From contig NZ_ASJD01000002.1 in assembly GCF_000691165.1 (NCBI RefSeq), forward strand, positions 1 through 64,000: DNA of 64,000 bases. The letters run 5' to 3'. The notes under the pieces are model-generated. The model was not told the origin of the DNA, searched no databases, and worked only from the letters and a program-made list of their open reading frames with translations. This stretch comes from Bacillus safensis FO-36b (GTDB lineage: Bacteria; Bacillota; Bacilli; Bacillales; Bacillaceae). This document shows positions 16,582 through 48,328 of this stretch, one piece after another. Each line of letters begins with the position of its first letter. Position 1 is the first letter of the stretch. Both the position numbers and the translations under genes were made by a program.

Positions 16582-16649
16582 CTTGATTCCATCCCTTCAG
16601 GTCATTTGTACGTTTTTATTATGAGCGAGATTTGAAAAAATACACAAAA

Positions 16650-16675
16650 AACCTCGCTTTGGTAGAAGCGAGGTT
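16650..16675 (-). terminator. Terminator of metNPQ (distal hairpin of repeat A)
   Basis: The AACCTCGCTT / AAGCGAGGTT stem is followed on the minus strand by a run of six T and a second T-rich stretch. Its twin at 16854-16879, nearer metQ, lacks the T-run. Confidence 0.75.
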
Positions 16676-16879
16676 GCAGATTGTTGATTAAGGGCTAAAA
16701 TGATCTTTATTTTAGCCCTTTATCTTCCTTTCAGCGTGATAGAAAACCTTTGCAGCCCTAGGAAGGGCGAGTACCGGAGCGGAGCGAATTTGACATTCGT
16801 GAGCACCGGAGCGCAGAACTGACAAAGAATGCGAGGGTTTGTCTACATGCTGAAACCTCGCTTTGATAGAAGCGAGGTT
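16650..16879. repeat. Repeat copy A (about 180 bp core) bracketed by duplicated hairpin
   Basis: The core at about 16677-16853 is shared with copies at 22.2 and 47.6 kb: CAGATTGTTGA start, stem AAGGGCTAAAA / TTTTAGCCCTT, CAGCGTGATAGAAAACC, the GGAGCGGAGCGAATT block and a GCGAGGGTTTGTCTACA end. It is flanked by two copies of a locus-specific hairpin (AACCTCGCTT / AAGCGAGGTT) at 16650-16675 and 16854-16879. On the minus strand the distal copy is followed by TTTTTT and is the metNPQ terminator. See findings. Confidence 0.85.
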
Positions 16880-16888
16880 GAAATGTTG

Positions 16889-17710
16889 TTATTCAGATAC
16901 AGGCAATACTGCACCGTCATATTTTTTGTCGATGAATTCTTTGATTTTATCAGAGTGAAGAACTTCCATTAGTGCCTTGATCTTATCTGATTTTTCGTCA
17001 CCTTTGCGAACCGCAACGATGTTTGCATATGGGTTGTTCTTTGTTTGCTCAAGTTCAATTGAATCTTTTTTCGGATTCAATTTATTTTGGATCGCATAGT
17101 TGACGTTGATGAATACAGCATCGCCTTCACTGTTTTCATAAGCTTTCGCAGTTAATTCAGGCGCGATTTTTTTGAATTTTAGGTTCTTTGGGTTTTCTTT
17201 AATGTTTTTTACTGTTGCGTTGATTGTATCAACCTTTGGATCAAGCTTGATGACACCAGCATTTTGCAGCAGGGCAAGCATACGGCCTTGTTCAGCTACG
17301 TTGTTTGTCATGATGATTGTGCCGCCGTTTGGAATATCTTTTACAGATTTGTATTTCTTAGAGTAGATACCGAAAGGCTCAAGGTGAACCGCACCAGCAC
17401 TCACTAGGTTATAATCTTTGTTTGATTTATTTTCTTCGTTTAAGTAAGGGATATGTTGGAAAAAGTTCGCATCCACTTCTTTTTCAGCTAACGCTTTGTT
17501 GTACATTTTATAATCGCTAAGCACTTTCACTTTTAAATCGTAGCCTTTTTCTTTTAGAAGTGGTTTTGCTTCTTCAAGAATTTCGGCATGAGGCGTTTTT
17601 GAAGCGGCAACCGTAATGGTTTTGCTTTCACTTGCGTTATTTGATGAACCGCACGCAGCTAAAATACCTGCAAATGCTAGAAATAGTGCACTTAATATCA
17701 ATTTCTTCAT
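16889..17710 (-). CDS. metQ: Methionine ABC transporter substrate-binding lipoprotein MetQ
   Basis: NlpA/MetQ-type lipoprotein that binds methionine outside the membrane. The N-terminus is a lipoprotein signal peptide ending in the lipobox LAACGSS (lipidated Cys about residue 20). The mature domain has the expected TPHAEILE, ANFFQHIPYL and YAIQNKLNP segments. 273 aa. It is third in metNPQ, whose S-box riboswitch shuts expression off when SAM is abundant. Confidence 0.96.
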   Translation of the reverse strand: MKKLILSALFLAFAGILAACGSSNNASESKTITVAASKTPHAEILEEAKPLLKEKGYDLKVKVLSDYKMYNKALAEKEVDANFFQHIPYLNEENKSNKDYNLVSAGAVHLEPFGIYSKKYKSVKDIPNGGTIIMTNNVAEQGRMLALLQNAGVIKLDPKVDTINATVKNIKENPKNLKFKKIAPELTAKAYENSEGDAVFINVNYAIQNKLNPKKDSIELEQTKNNPYANIVAVRKGDEKSDKIKALMEVLHSDKIKEFIDKKYDGAVLPVSE

Positions 17711-19508: not shown

Positions 19509-19676
19509 TAAAAAAGACCTAACTGCAACGCAAGCAGAAAGGCCTTTTATGTCAATTACGCCTTTCTCTCATCTTTCAAAGCGCTGCGGCTTTGAGTGAA
19601 TTGGCACCAATTTCAGCTATGCTGACGGTTGCCGGGTTTCATAGGGCACGTCCCTCCACCTCTCTTAATAAGAGAA
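19509..19676 (-). promoter_or_regulatory. SAM-I riboswitch (S box) of metNPQ
   Basis: On the minus strand the leader opens with CTCTTATTAAGAGAGGTGGA, then GGGACGTGCCCTATGAAACC and CGGCAACC, the diagnostic S-box core. It is followed by the P3/P4 stems and a terminator-like hairpin ending in TTTTTT at about 19511-19516. An alternative AGAAAGGC / GCCTTTCT pairing could serve as antiterminator. SAM binding should terminate transcription. Confidence 0.96.
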
Positions 19677-22187: not shown

Positions 22188-22216
22188 CAAAAAGGTGCGG
22201 AGTGTTATCCGCACCT
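22188..22216 (-). terminator. Terminator of fadNAE (distal hairpin of repeat B)
   Basis: AGGTGCGGAT / TCCGCACCT stem followed on the minus strand by TTTTT. The operon-proximal twin at 22392-22415 lacks the T-run. Confidence 0.7.
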
Positions 22217-22415
22217 CAGATTGTTGACAAAGGGATAAAATGATCTTTATTTTAGCCCTTTGTCTTCTTTTCAGCGTGATAGAAAACCTTTGCAGTCTAG
22301 GAAGGACGAGTACCGGAGCGGAGCGAATGAAACATTCGTGAGCACCGGCACGCAGGACTGACAACGAATGCGAGGGTTTGTCTACACGCTGAGGTGCGGA
22401 GTGATATCCGCACCT
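22193..22415. repeat. Repeat copy B bracketed by duplicated hairpin
   Basis: Second copy of the core seen at 16.7 kb (about 22217-22391). It lies between AGGTGCGGA / TCCGCACCT hairpins at 22193-22216 and 22392-22415 that differ from each other by one loop base and are unrelated to the hairpins of copies A and C. The inner stem GACAAAGGG / CCCTTTGTC is perfect here. It sits at the terminator of the fadNAE operon. Confidence 0.85.
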
Positions 22416-47533: not shown

Positions 47534-47564
47534 TAAAAAAGCACTCTTCTATTTGAAGAGTGCT
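47534..47564 (-). terminator. Terminator of yvqK (distal hairpin of repeat C)
   Basis: AGCACTCTTC / GAAGAGTGCT stem followed on the minus strand by TTTTTT; the gene-proximal twin at 47731-47753 has no T-run. Confidence 0.7.
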
Positions 47565-47753
47565 CAGATTGTTGACCAAGGGCAATTTTAGCCCTTGGTC
47601 TTCTTTTTTCAGCGTGATAGAAAACCTTTGCAGTCTAGGAAGGACGAGTACCGGAGCGGAGCGAATTGAACATTCGTGAGCACCGGAGCGCAGACCTGAC
47701 AAAGAATGCGAGGGTTTGTCTACACGCTGGGCACTCTTCTATTTGAAGAGTGC
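47540..47753. repeat. Repeat copy C bracketed by duplicated hairpin
   Basis: Third copy of the repeat core (about 47565-47730), with a short first stem loop but the same CAGCGTGATAGAAAACC, GGAGCGGAGCGAATT and GGGTTTGTCTACACGCTG blocks. Flanked by identical 23-bp GCACTCTTC / GAAGAGTGC hairpins at 47541-47563 and 47731-47753. It sits between yvqK and the LiaR box. Confidence 0.85.
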
Positions 47754-47758
47754 TTTCC

Positions 47759-48328
47759 TTATTTAGAACGAAACACGTCGGCACTTCGTTCATATTCAAC
47801 ATCAGCTTCACCAAGCCGATAATTCACGATTCGGGCGGCTGCAAATAAATAATCGGATAGACGGTTTACGTATGTGAGCGCAGCGGCTGGAATCTCCTCC
47901 TGTTTTGCAAGCGTCACAATATGCCTCTCGGCTCTTCTGACGACTGTCCGCGCCACATGTAAGAGAGCAGCGCCTTCCTGACCACCCGGTAAAATAAACT
48001 TAGTAAGCGGCTCAGCCTCTTCTACATAGACATCCATTCTTTCCTCAAGGACTGTCACAGAGGCTTCTGTTAATTTGCCTTCTTTACGTGGTTTGACTGC
48101 TGCCAAATCACCCCCGCAGTCAAACAGCTCATGCTGTATAACGATCAGCTCTGACAAAAGGTCCGGAAACAATTCGACATGCTGTCGTAAATTTGCATGC
48201 GCGAGTCCAATAAAGCTATTCGCCTCATCTAACGTACCATACGCCTCTACTCTCACATCATCTTTATCGGCTCTTCCGCCAATCAAGCCTGTTTGGCCCT
48301 GATCCCCGGTTTTCGTATAAAGTTTCAA
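47759..48328 (-). CDS. yvqK: ATP:cob(I)alamin adenosyltransferase (PduO type)
   Basis: Makes adenosylcobalamin. N-terminal KLYTKTGDQGQTGLIGG binds ATP; C-terminal VRRAERHIVTLA and NRLSDYLFAAAR are the PduO signature. 189 aa. The start is TTG with GAGGGG 6 nt upstream. Fits with the cobalamin-type ABC importer at 58.5-61.7 kb; in B. subtilis the two loci are neighbours, here separated by the acid-sugar cluster. Confidence 0.94.
   Translation of the reverse strand: MKLYTKTGDQGQTGLIGGRADKDDVRVEAYGTLDEANSFIGLAHANLRQHVELFPDLLSELIVIQHELFDCGGDLAAVKPRKEGKLTEASVTVLEERMDVYVEEAEPLTKFILPGGQEGAALLHVARTVVRRAERHIVTLAKQEEIPAAALTYVNRLSDYLFAAARIVNYRLGEADVEYERSADVFRSK

Follow-up and report, generated by a model that had tools for sequence, protein, structure and literature searches.

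The stretch of DNA analysed here, called the window below, is 64,000 nt long and contains three copies of one short core, each lying between two copies of a hairpin. The question that this locus raises is what the core is and how it came to be bracketed in this way. All three cores read on the minus strand, and each is found just 3' of an ORF on the same strand, as follows.

16677..16852, minus strand: MITE core of copy A, 176 bp, CAGCATGTAGACAAACCC ... CAACAATCTG
16853..16880, minus strand: gene-proximal hairpin of copy A, directly after the presumed metQ-like ORF, with no T-run after it
16649..16676, minus strand: gene-distal hairpin of copy A, followed by the terminator T-run, with 1 loop mismatch relative to the proximal hairpin
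16889..17710, minus strand: ORF upstream of copy A
22217..22391, minus strand: MITE core of copy B, 175 bp
22392..22415, minus strand: gene-proximal hairpin of copy B, after the presumed acyl-CoA-dehydrogenase-like ORF
22193..22216, minus strand: gene-distal hairpin of copy B, with the T-run and 1 mismatch in the loop
22428..24209, minus strand: ORF upstream of copy B
47565..47729, minus strand: MITE core of copy C, 165 bp, with a shorter right-end palindrome
47731..47754, minus strand: gene-proximal hairpin of copy C, after the presumed cob(I)alamin-adenosyltransferase-like ORF, with an extra C at 47730
47541..47564, minus strand: gene-distal hairpin of copy C, with the T-run, identical to the proximal hairpin
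47759..48328, minus strand: ORF upstream of copy C

Judged from their sequences, these ORFs presumably encode a MetQ-like methionine-transporter lipoprotein (copy A), an acyl-CoA-dehydrogenase-like protein (copy B) and a cob(I)alamin-adenosyltransferase-like protein (copy C). The hairpins are unique to each site, being 28 bp with one mismatch at A, 24 bp with one mismatch at B and 24 bp and identical at C, and they abut the core at either end, except that in copy C an extra base precedes the core. At all three sites a T-run follows only the hairpin that is farther from the upstream ORF. An earlier note, made from the letters of the window, had described three copies in the same orientation, each bracketed by a hairpin peculiar to its site and with the T-run kept by the far hairpin, and these observations were borne out. 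Its account of the core ends as weak inverted repeats held in part: such ends are present as noted, and the letters given for them needed amending for copy A, which has CAGCATGTAGAC and, at the other end, CAGATTGTTGATTAA. An Rfam search of the window at curated cut-offs placed no family over its cut-off at the repeat. The sole match in the window was a SAM riboswitch (RF00162, 84.4 bits) at 19566-19674 on the minus strand, and the ORFs downstream of it are presumably metNIQ-like.

The history of the three sites was determined by comparison with orthologous loci. The region was placed in 12 relatives; sites A and B were compared in 11 of them and site C in 9. These 31 comparisons gave 23 empty sites with a single hairpin that carries its T-run, 4 filled sites, 1 truncated and reversed remnant and 3 uninformative cases. 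At site A (n = 11), 1 relative was filled and 10 had the single hairpin and T-run; site B (n = 11) was filled in 2, held a truncated copy in the opposite orientation in 1 and had a single hairpin in 8; site C (n = 9) was filled in 1, had a single hairpin in 5 and carried another insert of 5-6 kb in 3. Two hairpins were found at 4/4 filled and 0/23 empty sites, as is expected of the target duplication of a MITE, so that the finding which the earlier note had named as damaging to its reading, empty orthologous sites that already have two hairpins, did not turn up. Because empty sites have one hairpin and filled sites two, the event was an insertion that brought in the core and made one further hairpin copy, and the single-hairpin empty sites, together with the flank scores given below, identify the target duplication as the terminator stem-loop.

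Two further observations concern the 47.6 kb site. Three relatives (L086, L088 and L090, in genomes G032, G026 and G035) have the insert of about 5-6 kb between the same flanks. In another (L084, genome G021), after a single hairpin comes a C, which the proximal copy of the window also has, and then Ts; this may be the scar of a precise loss through recombination between the two hairpins.

The draft genome to which the window belongs was searched in full, and the 46 matches obtained were counted as 40 places with the repeat (L001-L040). The repeat is short (165-176 bp in the window), multi-copy and free of a transposase gene, as expected of a MITE. When left and right flanks were aligned by a simple local method, 22 of the 40 places exceeded the highest score of 400 mismatched left/right pairs and 27 exceeded the 95th percentile of those pairs, with at least one of the 27 (L039) being non-hairpin; many of the remaining places are truncated copies. 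Among 61 genomes (the same genome and 60 relatives), the repeat was matched in 29, all of the same genus. Two sequence types can be distinguished, and the identity of most copies to the one in the window is about 87-98% or about 78-84%. Other genomes of the genus contain relatives that are ~80% identical to the window repeat and are flanked by hairpins in the same manner.

From 26 genomes of the genus we assembled 101 distinct copies that retain both ends and sufficient flanking sequence, some of which are orthologous, so that they do not represent 101 independent events. A duplicated hairpin at the core ends was found in 86 of the 101 (22/28 for copies from the window's genome and 13/14 for the ~80% identical type), scored with gaps allowed and counted when above the maximum of 600 mismatched flank pairs, this control being restricted to dissimilar pairs. 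An earlier, ungapped and stricter score, the control of which still included orthologous terminators, gave 35 of the 101 copies a value exceeding the control maximum and 78 a value exceeding the 99th percentile of the control. The other outcome that the earlier note had considered fatal, a majority of copies lacking the flanking duplication, is thus excluded by the 86/101, and its proposal of a small MITE-like element that duplicates a terminator stem-loop upon insertion is supported by both the empty sites and the flank duplications. Among the 15 failing copies, nine had no hairpin or a different one on one side (L008, L024, L033, L168, L174, L180, L189, L201 and L202), two had a partial hairpin (L055 and L063), and four had a gapped or short duplication that did not exceed the threshold (L011, L019, L029 and L167). 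In L033 and L202 a different terminator lies on each side, a pattern that recombination between two copies would be expected to leave. The orientation of the T-run varies genus-wide, with the right side T-richer in 46/86, the left side A-richer in 24/86 and a tie in 16/86.

A tandem pair was also seen (L176, genome G026), in which two MITEs share the middle hairpin in the order hairpin-MITE-hairpin-MITE-hairpin; this arrangement would be expected if a hairpin can be targeted again after its duplication, or from unequal recombination. Relatives of the repeat were present in no phage record and in only 4 plasmid records. A plasmid record named B. subtilis holds 77% of one relative of the ~80% type at 90% identity. 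The MITE was also matched at 83-89% identity in CP063894.1, NZ_CP078511.1 and NZ_CP078512.1, which are named Klebsiella variicola or Stutzerimonas stutzeri and seem likely to be contamination or mislabelled contigs.

The consensus MITE ends, CAGCGTGTAGACAAA and CAGATTGTTGACAAA, are identical at 12 of 15 positions, as terminal inverted repeats should be, and both fit CAGnnTGTnGACAAA at the boundaries defined by the duplications. The right end has a strong palindrome, in which 6 of 14 pairs show double changes and 1064 of 1085 cells are paired; the stem differs between the two MITE lineages with its pairing kept. Since the double changes mostly separate these two lineages, they amount to few independent events, and the covariation fits a need for a hairpin near the end of the element. 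The left end can pair with an internal inverted copy (CAGCGTG...CACGCTG), with a double change in 1 of 18 pairs; because these pairs are almost invariant, no claim is built on them.

The likely source of the repeat, which the earlier note had missed, is a group of IS1182-family transposons that have matching ends and the same hairpin duplication. Matches to the IS1182-family transposase model NF033551 at E <= 1e-20 were found in 26 of 44 genomes of the genus, and matches over its cut-off in 13 of 44. Two transposases that were tested scored 480.5 and 492.7 bits against a cut-off of 270 and contain the Pfam domains DDE_Tnp_1_6 and DUF772; by this NCBIfam score, the Bacillus IS with matching ends belong to the IS1182 family, from which the window repeat differs in being 165-176 bp long with no transposase gene. 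When 70 IS loci (L093-L162) were scanned for ends, 56 had a recognisable pair 1350-1700 bp apart and 14 did not. The IS1182 ends of the genus match the MITE ends, with the consensus CAGnn[T/C]GTnGA[C/G]AAA. In one IS group the ends are CAG[C/A]TTGTAGAGAAA and CAG[G/A]CTGTCGAGAAA, and in a second they are CAGCTTGTAGACAAA and CAGACCGTAGACAAA. For the GACAAA type, the IS end CAGCTTGTAGACAAAG agrees with the MITE end CAGATTGTTGACAAAG at 14 of 16 bases and CAGACCGTAGACAAACCC with CAGCGTGTAGACAAACCC at 15 of 18, and these are the closest end pairs. The resemblance is confined to the ends, as for a MITE that has its ends in common with an autonomous partner, and no full-length IS carrying the inner sequence of the MITE was seen.

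Of the 56 IS copies whose end pair was recognised, 52 are flanked by duplicated hairpins. The four that fail are a decayed copy (L106), one with a 10-bp non-palindromic repeat (L116), one with a 5-bp duplication (L123) and a composite (L146). In L123 (genome G022), the IS1182 copy lies inside a hairpin and has only the 5-bp duplication, near the loop, somewhat like the loop-duplication route c that Wan et al. 2017 drew as hypothetical (PMC5678879). For two IS insertions in a close relative, the genome of the window has a clean empty site; the duplicated segment is the hairpin in each case, of 23 and 20 bp. Furthermore, there are three terminators at which this genome has the MITE and a relative has IS1182, two of them matched by both flanks and one by a single flank. 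In L159 an IS is inserted in the palindrome of a MITE, and in the composite locus L146 one IS1182 adjoins the end hairpin of another. Folding of nine IS copies revealed terminal hairpins at both ends of the five GAGAAA-type copies and a hairpin at one very end in the four GACAAA-type copies; most of these end hairpins are terminator-like, e.g. CAGGCTGTCGAGAAAATCTCGACAGCC followed by Ts.

No IS1182 transposase gene was found in the draft genome of the window (37 contigs) by PF13751 and NF033551 searches. Searches of this genome turned up only IS1182 remnants, namely a 59-bp IS end with 93% identity and shorter pieces. The PF13751 result had been considered as an argument against IS1182, and it is answered by the genus-wide search and by these end remnants. 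The 59-bp end (L203, G000:C8:784-842) has no transposase and reads as a hairpin followed by Ts; it is possibly a domesticated IS end.

The geometry of the duplications was similar for the MITE and the IS. Their length was 19-35 bp (median 25) for the MITE and 13-33 bp (median 22) for the IS, and the dyad axis of the hairpin in the rebuilt empty site lay within 0.5 nt of the centre of the duplication in 79/86 MITE and 49/52 IS cases. The IS cuts between As, with A at position -1 in 78/102 edges and at +1 in 95/102, and the stem usually runs a few pairs past the cut, into a stretch in which A predominates. An inner stem of at least 4 pairs was present in 44/52 IS and 68/86 MITE duplications, compared with 38/1439 control segments of the window that have the same AA^A..T^TT edges and were picked regardless of pairing. 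Taken together, these results place the cut on each strand at a roughly equivalent structural position of that strand's hairpin. The hairpin was presumably extruded at the time, and linear binding with such variable spacing is less likely. In ungapped MITE pairs, differences between the proximal and distal hairpins were rarer in stems (29/1414) than in loops (21/354), consistent with both hairpins being kept.

Altogether, our results make it very likely that the repeat is a MITE moved in trans by IS1182-family DDE transposases and inserting at a hairpin, mostly a terminator stem-loop. In the mechanism that we propose, an IS1182 transposase would act in trans and place the MITE at a DNA hairpin, presumably recognised as an extruded cruciform or as a hairpin in single-stranded DNA. 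The left hairpin would retain the original A-tract, and the right hairpin the T-run. The proximal hairpin would lose its T-run, and read-through into the element followed by termination at the distal hairpin would be expected. Since the T-run stays with one of the two hairpins, a terminator should remain downstream, and the insertion would be nearly harmless.

Three other explanations were weighed against transposition by an IS1182 enzyme at a hairpin. The A-rich and T-rich edges of terminators (AAA..TTT inverted) might be bound as linear, double-stranded DNA, with the hairpin being incidental. In its favour, both strands are cut predominantly at A^A, and A and T tracts border terminators; the strong A^A edge means that some sequence preference exists. 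However, window segments with the same edges and the same length contain an inner stem of at least 4 pairs far less often than the IS targets do (38/1439 vs 44/52), duplications of 13-35 bp, or about 1 to 3 helical turns, are hard to reconcile with a rigid dimer on linear DNA, and one IS has inserted into a MITE palindrome (L159). We consider linear recognition unlikely, and the transposase seems to read DNA shape more than sequence.

The repeat could instead belong to the 3' UTR as an RNA or regulatory unit, such as a compound terminator or an sRNA, spread by recombination and not by transposition. The position of the window copies downstream of ORFs, the double changes in 6 of the 14 pairs of the right-end stem and the presence of relatives in no phage and only 4 plasmid records are in line with such a unit, but empty sites with hairpin duplication, the occurrence of both orientations, and ends and target duplication that are the same as those of IS1182 speak against it. 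No Rfam family reaches its cut-off, and the double changes are few events, mostly between two lineages. This explanation is scarcely credible. Slightly less improbable, though still very much so, is that the repeat is a hairpin-duplicating MITE of a transposase other than IS1182, as might be supposed from the lack of a detected IS1182 gene in its own genome and from a MITE/IS similarity that is limited to the ends. Against this, the MITE ends fit CAGnnTGTnGACAAA and match IS ends at 14/16 and 15/18 positions, IS1182 being the sole family examined, and the MITE and IS1182 have the same unusual duplication and three terminators in common.

The breadth of this behaviour was assessed by scanning one genome per species, 84,980 species in all, with an alignment of three transposases. 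At least 368 relatives were confirmed; the best 80 of these were examined, and 70 had at least 150 nt on both sides. A direct repeat scoring at least 14 between the two sides was found in 50 of these 70 loci, compared with 3 of 300 mismatched pairs, and the other 20 were below that score. A stem of at least 5 is held by 48 of the 50 repeats; without L258, which is a partial second IS copy, this leaves 47 of the 70 IS1182 loci, a count of loci and not of species because several come from one genome (e.g. Oscillibacter, MO-XQ). According to record titles, the loci belong to Bacillota, Mycoplasmatota (titled Tenericutes, Acholeplasmataceae) and Pseudomonadota, the last comprising Serratia and metagenome bins of Lysobacterales and Marinobacter. 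Six plasmid IS copies were also inspected. Three showed hairpin duplication (S. simulans, Aminobacter and Sutcliffiella), the two distant ones, from Paracoccus and Sinorhizobium (25-26% identity), did not, and an ISEfa7 copy had one recognisable end only; the trait is therefore not claimed for the whole IS1182 family.

On balance we lean, by a narrow measure, towards a more general proposal for a broad branch of IS1182 spanning at least three phyla by record titles. Its DDE transposase would recognise an extruded cruciform and cut each strand at the 5' foot of its hairpin, with the shape of the target setting a duplication of 13-35 bp. The ends of the donor, which are often terminator-like hairpins, hint that the same structure is recognised there, and IS1272 would perform the same reaction at the 3' feet.

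Several known systems resemble the one described here. Kunst et al. are said to have reported in 1997 a 190-bp repeat family in the genome of B. subtilis 168, and the window repeat is likened to it by size and genus only. The YPAL element of Yersinia was reportedly first described by De Gregorio et al. in 2006. A later source describes YPAL, also named RU-2, as a 168-bp intergenic element with variable duplications of 3-26 bp and known empty sites, the targets of which span or adjoin dyads (PMC2229807). On that description, the two are alike in their short size, variable duplications, dyad targets and empty sites. They differ in that the YPAL duplication is described as lying at or next to dyads and not as a whole hairpin, and that no partner transposase is named in the available portion of that source.

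IS1272, a member of the IS1182 family in staphylococci, targets hairpins, including several terminators, with no sequence consensus, and the same terminator has been hit repeatedly and in both orientations, according to two papers (PMC5678879, PMC4923244). They report that it replaces or deletes the stem-loop and leaves no target duplication (PMC5678879, PMC4923244), and in one of them Wan et al. 2017 drew duplication of the whole stem-loop as a hypothetical route b (PMC5678879). Some IS1182 members target palindromic sequences, according to a 2015 review cited in PMC4923244. In contrast to IS1272, the Bacillus elements keep and duplicate the stem-loop (86/101 MITE and 52/56 IS copies), and deletion is not what was observed. 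No copies named IS1272 that could serve as controls were present among the plasmid records listed (40 of 1333 and 60 of 318), so that the contrast with IS1272 is drawn from PMC5678879 and PMC4923244. Whole-hairpin duplication by IS1182 or by a MITE was not found as an observed result in the literature searched, including the available portions of PMC10969869 and PMC2267715; subscription papers and ISfinder notes may record it. Within searchable papers, four features seem new: a whole hairpin is duplicated systematically, the duplication is symmetrical, it occurs broadly across IS1182 elements, and a high-copy MITE family has it as well.

As a rule, a DDE transposase cuts with a fixed stagger, and its target duplications therefore hardly vary in length. 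In the Bacillus elements, the length of the duplication follows the target hairpin. If IS1272, which is reported to delete hairpins, is considered as well, one enzyme family would act on the same structure with opposite results, so that structure-directed transposition could be tested with simple stem-mutant targets. The results also suggest a low-harm mode of spread, in which a mobile element inserts at terminators and each of its sides is left with a hairpin. In genome annotation, a doubled terminator in Bacillus or its relatives may be the mark of such an insertion or of its scar.
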